A stretch of DNA of 64,000 nucleotides, from positions 1 to 64,000 of the forward strand of contig JADLBH010000001.1 of NCBI GenBank assembly GCA_020847855.1, read 5' to 3'. A program made the translations under genes and the position numbers. The notes under the pieces are model-generated. The model had not been told where the DNA came from. It was given only the letters and a program-made list of their open reading frames with translations, and ran no database searches. Each line of letters starts with the position of its first letter. The first letter of the stretch is position 1. Below, in pieces: positions 32,918 to 39,860 of this stretch. Source of the stretch: Fimbriimonadaceae bacterium. Lineage in GTDB: Bacteria > Armatimonadota > Fimbriimonadia > Fimbriimonadales > Fimbriimonadaceae.

Positions 32918-33246
32918 CAGCAAAATATACGTGGCAGAAACCGCTGAAGGCACCGATTGTTAGGGGTGATGAACCTAGAAGCTCTTGCTGAACTCTTCTC
33001 AACGGCGCCGCTTTCCGTCCCGAGCGCTCCCGCTGAAAGGATGCGGTACGTCGAGCAGGCCTAGGGCCCATTTGCACGAAGGTATAGTCCGAACCTGCCT
33101 TGGACACCAGGGCAGAAAAGATCGCGCGGCTTCGAGTCTGGCCATTGCCGCCCCCTAACCAGGGGCAACGGTTCTGAGTGGACACGGCACGGGAAGCTGC
33201 AGCGAGCTCACAGCGAGCACGGTTCGGCCGTGCGACAGGAGTGACC
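32918..33246. other. 329-base intergenic region before the ribosomal protein cluster
   Basis: No coding frame with a recognisable product is seen on either strand, and in particular no rpsJ. It holds a TATAGT -10-like box at 33083-33088 and a hairpin at about 33145-33168 (TTGC-CCC with GGGGCAA, two-base bulge). With that promoter, rplC would have a leader of about 150 bases. Confidence 0.5.
33083..33088 (+). promoter_or_regulatory. Candidate -10 box (TATAGT) of the S10 cluster
   Basis: This is the best -10-like site in the region before rplC, about 158 bases upstream of its start; the -35 is weak. Confidence 0.4.
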
Positions 33247-33873
33247 TTGCTCACAGGAATACTAGGAACCAAGATTGGGATGACGCATGTCTTCAGCGAA
33301 GACGGGCGGATGATCCCCGTCACCGTCATTCAAGCCGGGCCGGTGTTCGTCACCCAGGTGAAAACCCAGGCCAGCGACGGCTACTCGGCTGTTCAGGTCG
33401 GCTTCGGGGAGATCAGCGACAAGAAGATCACCTTCCCCAAGTTCGGCCACCTGAAGAAGGCCGGCCTGAGCCAGAACTTGCGACACCTTCGCGAATATCG
33501 CGTGGCAGACACAAGCGGCTTCGAACCTGGCCAGATGATCGGGTGCGACATCTTCGCGGAAGGCGACGACGTCCGTGTCACGGCAACCAGCAAGGGACGC
33601 GGCTTCCAAGGAGGCGTGAAGCGGTATGGGTTCAAGGGCCAGCACATGACCCACGGGTATATGACCCACCGCAGGCCGCTCTCGAGCGGAGCCACCGGGC
33701 CTCAGCGCGTATTCAAAGGAACCCGAAAGCCGGGCCGGATGGGAACCGAGACCGTGACTCAAAAGGGACTCAAGATCGTGGGTGTGGACGCAGAAAGGAA
33801 CCTGATCCTCGTGAGCGGCAGCGTCCCGGGGCACAACGGGTGCCTCGTCTCGCTCGCCAAGGAGGCCAAGTAA
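33247..33873 (+). CDS. rplC: 50S ribosomal protein L3
   Basis: Early-assembly 23S rRNA-binding protein near the peptidyl-transferase entrance, 208 residues. MLTGILGTKIGMTHVFSEDG is the family start, and the glycine-rich GRGFQGGVKRYGFKGQHMTH finger is intact, including the glutamine that is methylated by PrmB in other bacteria. TTG 33247 is preferred over GTG 33241 because AGGAG lies five bases before it and the N-terminus then matches other L3 proteins. It is the first gene of the cluster; rpsJ, which normally precedes it, is absent. Confidence 0.95.
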   Translation: MLTGILGTKIGMTHVFSEDGRMIPVTVIQAGPVFVTQVKTQASDGYSAVQVGFGEISDKKITFPKFGHLKKAGLSQNLRHLREYRVADTSGFEPGQMIGCDIFAEGDDVRVTATSKGRGFQGGVKRYGFKGQHMTHGYMTHRRPLSSGATGPQRVFKGTRKPGRMGTETVTQKGLKIVGVDAERNLILVSGSVPGHNGCLVSLAKEAK

Positions 33874-35971: not shown

Positions 35972-36051
35972 GTCCCGAGGCGGGGGCAGGCTCCGGTAGA
36001 ATCCGGAACCTTGTCAGACCCGGCCTCAGACCTGCCAGGCGGCAAGGAACT

Positions 36052-37931: not shown

Positions 37932-38137
37932 AGTCGCTCAAGGCGTCTGAACTGAGGGACAAGTCCGTTCCCGAGCTCGAAAAGCTGATCGCCGAGGAGC
38001 GCGCCGCCCTCTACAAGGCTCGGCGAGACCTCGTATTCCGACAGCAGACCGACACCTCGAGGCTCAAGGTCCACCGCCACAACATCGCACGGATGCTGAC
38101 CTTGATCTCGGAGAAGAAGCGAGGGGGCGACAAGTGA
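37928..38137 (+). CDS. rpmC: 50S ribosomal protein L29
   Basis: Small helical protein at the tunnel exit, 69 residues. [20 protein letters not shown] and the basic C-terminal helix ([17 protein letters not shown]) match the family. Its start overlaps the rplP stop, and its stop overlaps the rpsQ start. Confidence 0.95.
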
Positions 38138-38394
38138 GCGCAGAGCCGCGCGGGAACCGAAAAGTGCGACGCGGCGTCGTTGCCTCGAACAAGATGACGA
38201 AGACCGTCGTCGTGAAGCTCGAGCGCGCGATGCAGCACCCGCTCTATGGCAAGACCGTACGCACGACGGATCGCGTCAAGGCTCACGACGAGCTGGGCTG
38301 CGACATCGGCGACACCGTCGAGATCATGGAGACCCGGCCGCTCAGCAAGCACAAGCACTGGCGCGTGACCCGAGTGATCGAGAAGGTGAAGTAA
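38134..38394 (+). CDS. rpsQ: 30S ribosomal protein S17
   Basis: OB-fold 16S rRNA-binding protein, 86 residues. [20 protein letters not shown] and [20 protein letters not shown], then [20 protein letters not shown], are diagnostic. GTG 38134 overlaps the rpmC stop (GTGA). A 92-base structured gap follows before rplN. Confidence 0.96.
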
Positions 38395-38414
38395 CGAGAT
38401 ATCGAAATCAGGTA

Positions 38415-38462
38415 GGGCGAGGGAGAAAACCCTAGGGCCGGCGGGCGACCGCTCCGGCCCGT
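38415..38462 (+). promoter_or_regulatory. Two adjacent hairpins in the rpsQ-rplN gap
   Basis: The first stem is TAGGG (38415-38419) with CCCTA (38432-38436). The second is GGGCCGG (38437-38443) with CCGGCCC (38456-38462), extended by CGG/CCG across a GCGA tetraloop of the GNRA type, with a two-base bulge at 38454-38455. The stems are directly adjacent and could stack. They stand 24 bases before ATG 38487, whose AAGGAG site is unstructured. Confidence 0.55.
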
Positions 38463-38486
38463 GCCCGACGATGAAGGAGCGAACAA

Positions 38487-38858
38487 ATGATCCAGCAATT
38501 TTCCAGGCTCAAGGTGGCCGACAACAGTGGCGCGAGGGAAGTCATGTGCATCCGAGTGCTCAAGGGCTCGCAACCCCGGTACGGCGGCGTCGGCGATGTG
38601 ATCGTGGCCTCCGTCAAGGTCGCAACCCCGAACATGCCCGTCAAGAAGGGCGAAGTGGTGCGCTGCGTCGTCGTGCGGACCAAGCGCGACATCCGTCGCG
38701 CCGATGGAAGCACGCTCAAGTTTGATGACAACGCCTGCGTCGTGATCAACCCGCAGAGCGGAGAGCCGAGAGGAACGAGAATCTTCGGCCCCGTCGCCCG
38801 CGAACTGCGAGACCACAACTACATGAAGATCGTCTCGCTCGCTCCGGAGGTGATCTGA
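38487..38858 (+). CDS. rplN: 50S ribosomal protein L14
   Basis: Binds 23S rRNA and forms an inter-subunit bridge with 16S rRNA, 123 residues. [40 protein letters not shown] and [20 protein letters not shown] are the family signature. AAGGAG lies seven bases before ATG. First gene of the spc-like half of the cluster. Confidence 0.97.
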
Positions 38859-38861
38859 ACC

Positions 38862-39275
38862 ATGCCCACGAAAGCCGAGATCAAAGCAGCCAAGAAGCCC
38901 ATCAAGTCCAAAGTGAGGACGGGCGACAAGGTGATCATCATCGCGGGCAAGGACAAGGGCCAGATCGGTATCGTCGCCGCCCTCTCCCCCAAGGAGCGGA
39001 AGGCAATCGTGATACAAGAGAACCCGGAGAACCCGGAGCAACCGATCCCGCTCAACGCTGTGACCAAGCACCGCAAGGCAAAGTACCAAGGCCAGCAGTC
39101 GGCGCGCATCCGCATGCCGGCACCGCTCGATCTGAGCAACCTCATGGTGATTGACCCCGCATCCGACCAGCCGAGCCGGATCGGCCGACGCGAGGAGAAG
39201 GGCAAGCTCGTGCGATACGCCAAAAAGAGCGGCAAGACGATCGTGGACAAGCCCAACATCAGCAAGGAGAAGTAA
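38862..39275 (+). CDS. rplX: 50S ribosomal protein L24
   Basis: Assembly-initiating 23S rRNA-binding protein with a KOW motif (KVRTGDKVIIIAGKDKGQIG). At 137 residues it is longer than the usual 100-115, with an N-terminal basic lead of 14 residues and a C-terminal tail that keeps the L24 ending (LMVIDPASDQPSRIGRREE, GKLVRYAKKSGKTI). ATG 38862 is three bases after rplN. Confidence 0.95.
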   Translation: MPTKAEIKAAKKPIKSKVRTGDKVIIIAGKDKGQIGIVAALSPKERKAIVIQENPENPEQPIPLNAVTKHRKAKYQGQQSARIRMPAPLDLSNLMVIDPASDQPSRIGRREEKGKLVRYAKKSGKTIVDKPNISKEK

Positions 39276-39278
39276 GGA

Positions 39279-39860
39279 ATGGCGAAGAAGGACAAGCAGG
39301 AAGGCGGACCGCAGGGCAAGCTGCCGGCAGCGCGACTGAAGAAGATTTACGCGTAGAAGGTGCGTCCGGAGCTCATGGAGCAGTTCAAGTACTCCAGCTT
39401 GATGGAGGCACCCCGCCTCGTCAAGGTCGTCGTGAACATGGGCACCGGCATCGAGGAGAAGGAACTCGAGGCTGCCATTAACGACATGTCCTTGATCACG
39501 GGGCAGAAACCAGTCGCGACCGTCGCCCGAAAGTCGGTCTCCAACTTCAAGCTAAGAGAAGGGATGAAGGTCGGGTGCCGGGTCACCCTTCGCGGGGATC
39601 GGGCCTACCACTTCCTGGACAAGCTCGCCACGGTCGCGCTTCCGCGCATCCGCGACTTCCAAGGTCTCCCGCCCAAGTCGTTCGATGGCCGAGGAAACTA
39701 CTCGCTCGGGCTCAAGGAGCAGCTTGTCTTCCCTGAGATTGATTACGACAAGTTCGACAAGCAGCGCGGGATGGACATCACGATCTGCACAACGGCCAAG
39801 ACGGACGAAGAGGGGCGGGCTTTCCTCAAGGCAATGGGCATGCCCTTGCGCGAGAAGTAG
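39279..39860 (+). CDS. rplE: 50S ribosomal protein L5 with in-frame amber codon near the N-terminus
   Basis: L5 binds 5S rRNA in the central protuberance and is essential. The body is intact ([60 protein letters not shown]). The full frame starts at ATG 39279, four bases after rplX, with AAGGAG nine bases upstream, and reads [20 protein letters not shown] then KKIYA, but then meets TAG at 39354-39356 before AAG and GTG (39360). The codons before the stop align with the first helix of L5 (RLKEKY-xEVxPxLM), so TAG replaces one residue, probably Glu or Lys. The uninterrupted frame from GTG 39360 gives 166 residues, lacking half of helix 1; normal L5 has about 180. Readthrough, reinitiation or a sequence error are all possible. 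Confidence 0.9.

Follow-up and report, generated by a model that had tools for sequence, protein, structure and literature searches.

A covarying hairpin upstream of rplN in Fimbriimonadaceae is a candidate ribosomal protein leader resembling 23S rRNA H96/H97

The first 64,000 nt of contig JADLBH010000001.1 from a Fimbriimonadaceae bacterium (this whole stretch is called the window here) carry a cluster of ribosomal protein (r-protein) genes with a gap between rpsQ and rplN. A sequence-only reading of this DNA had proposed that the gap interrupts an otherwise tightly packed cluster, and that its two stems, the second with a GNRA-type loop, are typical of a leader mimicking a protein or rRNA target. 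The locus thus raises the question of whether the gap is the site of such a leader, what it may bind and in what state the window carries it.

The ends of rpsQ and rplN confirmed that the gap is non-coding and 92 bases long, and the Pfam domains found around it were L29, S17, L14, L24, L5 and GcpE (Table 1). The junctions on either side overlap or measure 3-4 nt, in line with tight packing, but rpsS and rplV lie 80 nt apart (35972-36051), and the cluster is therefore not otherwise gap-free. This rpsS-rplV spacing is itself structured (z = -1.97, 8/200 shuffles). Within the window, the N-terminal part of rplE contains an in-frame TAG (39355-39357) at a place where all 21 relatives compared have a sense codon; it may be a sequencing error, a real nonsense codon with a restart at GTG 39360, or recoding.

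Table 1. Genes and predicted RNA elements at the rpsQ-rplN gap of the window
Feature	Position	Strand	Basis
rpsQ (uS17), gene 5' of the gap	38134..38394	+	ORF; Pfam PF00366, E 6.2e-28
rpsQ-rplN gap, site of the family's candidate leader	38395..38486	+	non-coding, 92 bases
Closing helix, UCA 5' strand (partner 38472-38474)	38408..38410	+	folding, probability 0.46-0.82
Enclosing helix, GGGC 5' strand (partner 38463-38466)	38415..38418	+	folding, probability 0.99-1.00
First stem, AGGG-agaaaa-CCCU	38420..38433	+	folding; 38420-38423 with 38430-38433, 4 bp
Second stem, 10 bp, GCGA loop 38445-38448, two-base bulge 38453-38454	38435..38460	+	folding; 38435-38444 with 38449-38460
Enclosing helix, GCCC 3' strand	38463..38466	+	folding
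Closing helix, UGA 3' strand, touches the Shine-Dalgarno	38472..38474	+	folding
rplN Shine-Dalgarno AAGGAG	38474..38479	+	sequence
rplN (uL14), presumed ligand and first controlled gene	38487..38858	+	ORF; Pfam PF00238, E 7.5e-53
rplX (uL24), 3 nt 3' of rplN, presumably co-controlled	38862..39275	+	ORF, Pfam
rplE (uL5), in-frame TAG 39355-39357; last ribosomal gene of the cluster	39279..39860	+	ORF, Pfam

Folding predicted both stems of the sequence-only reading, one of 4 bp and, after a single base, one of 10 bp with a GCGA loop and a two-base bulge. They are the arms of a three-way junction, and two helices had been missed: an enclosing GGGC:GCCC helix, extended by GU:AC (probability 0.64-0.76), and a closing UCA:UGA helix, whose probability varied with the flanks included in the fold. 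The window gap alone was marginally stable (z = -1.93), its stability being equalled or exceeded by 11 of 200 dinucleotide shuffles, and by 4 of 100 in a second run. Family-wide, folding was clear, with a mean z of -2.5 over the 70 gaps of at least 45 nt and z < -2 in 40 of them.

We searched 85 genomes of the family, the window's included. rplN was found in 81 of them, and the rpsQ-rplN gap was taken from 80; G080 (L106) was excluded, as its contig has no rpsQ upstream. The gap exceeded 40 nt in 70 of the 80 genomes (median 87), and its sequence and length were highly variable. Of the five remaining junctions between rpsC and rplE, rplX-rplE alone was often long (33/78), the rest giving 0/76, 1/79, 7/79 and 0/80. 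In the rplX-rplE count, the window's own value of 84 arises spuriously from the in-frame TAG in rplE; its gap measures 3 nt. One record titled 'Methanoregulaceae archaeon isolate SJ84' (L141) carries a Fimbriimonadaceae ribosomal cluster with the same gap as G011, and is probably mislabelled or contaminated.

A motif recurred in these gaps: a lower helix ending in A-U, one base opposite CUC (a 1x3 internal loop N / CUC), and then three G-C pairs. A descriptor of this motif, accepting CUC, CGC or CUG, matched 34 of the 80 gaps in 10 genera, including 18 of the 61 outside genus g20. Over 100 rounds of dinucleotide shuffling, the mean was 0.36 matches and the maximum 2; because the descriptor was written after seeing the data, the shuffles serve as a control, not as a blind test. 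Match density was 5.2 per kb within the gaps; the sequences flanking them had 0.12 per kb on the sense strand (34 matches in 273 kb) and 0.19 per kb on the antisense strand (52 matches). The antisense strand of the rpsQ-rplN gaps gave no match. The exact motif was missing from 46 of the 80 gaps, six of which hold near variants recognised by eye (L025, L069, L070, L095, L097 and L100), and from all 24 loci examined in the order's other families.

As in r-leaders, the 34 matches lie in untranslated sequence immediately before r-protein genes. The 3' end of the hairpin lies 13-24 nt upstream of the rplN start in 27 of the 34 copies, and UCA/UGA trinucleotides close it in 10 of the 23 distinct cores of relatives. 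The features on which the sequence-only argument had leaned, a GCGA loop and a bulged stem of 10 bp, are not conserved, other loops and stems being found in relatives. As a recognition element, the GNRA-capped stem was accordingly rejected.

We examined covariation in an alignment of 19 copies from genera g20, g7 and g26 (A2), from which the GGC-type copies, the g27 and g3 copies and L103 were omitted. The apical helix, which played no part in choosing these copies, had 81.6% of cells paired and both-sided change in 6/6 pairs. The whole structure was 90.4% paired, versus 26-45% when slid. Three of five covariation measures exceeded all 500 shuffles; the two that did not were both-sided pair changes (103/500) and further pair types (124/500). 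The six core pairs of A2 were nearly invariant. For these pairs, we therefore built a second alignment (A4) by joining the two strands of 23 distinct cores, which together represent all 10 genera, and left out eleven core-identical rows and the six near variants (L097 is in A2). A4 was 93.2% paired, a fraction biased because its rows were chosen by pairing, so that the evidence lies in the variety of pairs: 28 cells changed on both sides, and the upper helix alternates GCC:GGC, GGC:GCC and CCC:GGG. The A4 score was 0.436 versus 0.108, with 0 of 500 shuffles as high; both-sided pair changes were reached by 3/500 shuffles and further pair types by 29/500. Since related sequences can beat shuffles without structure, the spread over genera outweighs these counts. 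No counts were taken from an all-in-one alignment (A1), which misaligned many GGC-type copies. Taken together, the secondary structure of the family hairpin is supported by covariation, with compensatory changes in both helices. The covariation check suggested earlier thus came out positive for this conserved hairpin, but not for the window's particular stems, which are not conserved.

A covariance model built from A2 (R1) recovered, on 76 loci, its 19 members and L064 from a fourth genus (26.3 bits, E 6.8e-5), with a weak match to L103 (E 0.053); it did not match the other GGC-type copies, the g27 and g3 copies or the window. In the 85 whole genomes it gave 20 matches at E <= 1e-3, namely the 19 training copies and one overlapping an open reading frame. 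On the 16S-bearing stretches L121 and L122, both without 23S, no convincing match was obtained.

The two-strand core of the hairpin was scanned against rRNA, with reversed strands allowed, in five 23S sequences of the family. In three of them, those with CUC at the place, the best score (21.0 bits) fell on the junction just after the sarcin-ricin loop, which we take to be H96/H97. This core score was reached by 12 of 200 shuffled 16S+23S sequences, and the likeness in sequence only is not decisive. The other two sequences have CUA at H96/H97, and their top-scoring place was another one (GCAAACC / GGUCUCUGC), whose strands are about 155 nt apart; this candidate was set aside. On inspection by eye, a uS8-like h21 motif and a kink-turn were also discarded. 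Downstream of the sarcin-ricin loop, the two G017 contigs with L207 and L230 differ in their 23S segments, which may reflect contamination of that assembly.

In the curated 23S structure of Rfam RF02541, the place consists of a helix of six, then CUC facing a single base, and three pairs UGG:CCA, which is the layout of the mRNA hairpin. rRNA and mRNA thus have in common a helix, a CUC opposite one base and an A-U-closed 3-bp helix, the latter being UGG:CCA in rRNA and mostly UGA:UCA, UGG:CCA or UGC:GCA in mRNA. Unlike the rRNA, in which the CUC strand comes first, the mRNA has the strands in reversed order and an apical hairpin of its own. Further, genera with CUA in 23S carry CUC or CGC in mRNA. 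Therefore, rRNA and mRNA do not covary at that base, which counts against strict mimicry.

It is the usual position of the hairpin next to the rplN ribosome-binding site, together with the H96/H97 layout, that leads us to read it as an r-protein leader. We give even odds to the reading that a cis-acting leader of this kind has its place in the gap, in which an H96/H97-like hairpin before rplN would bind uL14 or an H96 neighbour, and of which the window would carry a diverged copy. From the observed place, conservation, covariation and rRNA resemblance, we infer binding, a ligand and repression along the following lines. In its intact form, the leader would be an mRNA hairpin with an A-U-closed N / CUC 1x3 loop in front of the rplN ribosome-binding site. 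Once uL14 (or an H96 neighbour) exceeds free rRNA, it would bind this hairpin and clamp its weak lower helix, and the clamped hairpin would block initiation on rplN and, by coupling, on rplX. Given the distance of the hairpin end from the rplN start in most copies, a stabilising protein would cover the ribosome-binding site.

The window's own gap fails both the descriptor and R1. It has no CUC and lacks the conserved signature of N / CUC with a closing A-U, and its second stem resembles the R1 upper hairpin only in part (2.1 bits, not significant). It retains the UCA:UGA pairing that touches the Shine-Dalgarno and, further up, GGC:GCC; in place of the N / CUC loop it has longer strands, and there is an additional arm. 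The window may thus carry a diverged or a decayed copy of the family hairpin. Accordingly, the earlier proposal of an rRNA-mimicking leader is plausible at the family level, where a covarying hairpin with the 23S H96/H97 layout occurs, but is unproven for the window, where the signature is missing.

We also placed the motif on a quick tree of L16, L29, S17, L14 and L24. Its bearers (40 of 80, near variants included) are spread over both halves of the family, which requires at least 11 state changes; therefore, the element is either old and often lost, or arose repeatedly. The group of eight rows that includes the window (g1, g8, g11 and g17) has just two motif bearers, both g17 genomes; the motif is missing from the nearest rows, g8 and g11, and from 2 of the 4 g17 genomes. 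This distribution, like the lack of a model match and the marginal folding, would also suit a decayed remnant, that is, an ancestral leader that lost its signature in this lineage and left GC-rich stems behind as functionless leftovers. The retained UCA:UGA and GGC:GCC pairs and an enclosing helix with a probability near 1 argue against decay. A remnant is quite possible, though we lean somewhat against it.

Returning to the leader reading, the ligand of the hairpin is probably uL14, which we prefer because its gene lies directly downstream. In the portions of the literature covered by our search for a direct uL14-H96/H97 contact, no passage placed uL14 on this loop. Contacts in this neighbourhood are described for other proteins: uL6 binds H97 and uL3 touches domain VI (PMC9687910), and bL19, the neighbour of uL14, contacts H96 (PMC11354259). 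The uL3 gene lies within the window's cluster (33178-33873). That uL3, uL6 or bL19 rather than uL14 is bound nevertheless seems rather doubtful, as uL6 is encoded on another contig and the 19 confident R1 gap matches, which are also the training set of R1, all lie directly before rplN.

We also considered that the hairpin might serve to process or stabilise the mRNA where two segments of the cluster meet, for instance as an RNase III site, in which case its sequence would be unimportant. In many relatives (L009, L022, L025, L074-L076, L090, L097 and others, by eye), a variable, well-paired second stem-loop of unconserved sequence precedes the conserved hairpin, as might be expected of such a site, and the E. 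coli spc operon begins at rplN (PMC10931766). However, a generic stem would need neither the unpaired CUC nor the closing A-U that are kept in 10 genera, and the match to the 23S layout likewise makes this explanation unlikely.

That the gap is only a promoter or intrinsic terminator region, as might be supposed from E. coli, which has a promoter in its rpsQ-rplN gap, is very improbable, since the window gap has neither a GC stem with a T run nor a sigma-70-type promoter-like site, GGTANAAT occurs in 0 of 80 rpsQ-rplN gaps versus 9 of the 15 rpsS-rplV gaps of at least 50 nt, and relatives have a covarying RNA structure here; the termination or promotion that the sequence-only reading had named as speaking against a leader is thus not indicated.

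Of the 30 loci tried for the rpsS-rplV gap, some of which repeat a genome, 28 gave a readable sequence, and 21 gaps were counted, the window's included. GGTANAAT, which is often followed by CCTTG in these gaps, is likely a -10 promoter element. Its uneven occurrence makes a promoter likelier in the rpsS-rplV gap than in the rpsQ-rplN gap, and the former probably holds a promoter inside the cluster. In the window, the rpsS-rplV gap contains GGTAGAAT.

Many relatives (L024, L023, L008, L104 and others), but not the window, have a second hairpin, GCCUG-GUCAGNAAU-CAGGC, between rplX and rplE. Among 27 copies collected by eye, each of its five pairs was changed on both sides in at least one copy. 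In L023 and L024, the core of 19 nt matches without a difference a 23S stretch of G007, which we take to be H84. Across the 85 genomes, a model built from the mRNA copies alone (R2) gave 58 matches at E 0.01. Of these, 32 lay between rplX and rplE, 25 fell within 23S rRNA (21 assigned by distance to the sarcin-ricin loop and 4 by Rfam) and one was unexplained (G032:C1:2451033). The P-site loop of uL5 contacts H84 (PMC10531944). The rplE hairpin is therefore, by its sequence, a candidate H84 mimic and a candidate for the first uL5 leader. A hairpin that appears to copy H84 strongly supports mimicry in this operon.

We compared these elements with known systems. In Rfam 15, two tRNAs were the only window matches above the gathering threshold, with nothing in the gap, and the loci of 12 relatives gave two weak matches at E <= 1, neither in the gap. 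Eckert and Weinberg reported 20 candidate r-leaders in 2020 (PMC7247131). As far as that article's main text goes, the family element is like them in being a covarying RNA just upstream of r-protein genes, with rRNA resemblance and a narrow taxonomic range; it differs in its presumed ligand, since none of the 20 leaders in their Table 1 is assigned to uL14, uL24 or uL5. In the article text, to which this comparison applies, the terms rplN, L14, uL24, uS17 and Armatimonad are absent.

In E. coli, uS8 is the spc repressor; it binds at the rplE start and mimics 16S h21 (PMC10931766). The uS8 operator and the family element share the L14-L24-L5 gene group, with translational feedback by rRNA mimicry in E. 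coli (PMC10931766) and a putative regulation in the family. Unlike the uS8 operator, the family element lies before rplN and resembles 23S H96/H97, and rpsH is on another contig in the window's genome. There, S14, S8, L6, L18 and S5 form a separate locus behind a flagellin gene (L167, G000 contig C37), and feedback by uS8 of the E. coli type is therefore unlikely to act in the same way. In L167, a stretch of about 280 nt precedes the S14 gene.

The family hairpin is thus a candidate r-leader, and the literature searched yielded no described leader with uL14 or uL5 as ligand. Our overall picture, which we rate only slightly short of an even chance, is that Fimbriimonadaceae, with their spc genes split and uS8 outside the rplN-rplX-rplE operon (shown in the window's genome only), would use two mimic leaders, one before rplN resembling 23S H96/H97 (the first uL14 leader) and one before rplE resembling 23S H84 (the first uL5 leader), with the window's lineage re-evolving or losing the first. 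The family-wide hairpins are specific, testable proposals for one bacterial family, with uL14 and uL5 as the suggested ligands. They may also illustrate the frequency with which leaders of this type disappear or are rebuilt, the window being a case of divergence.
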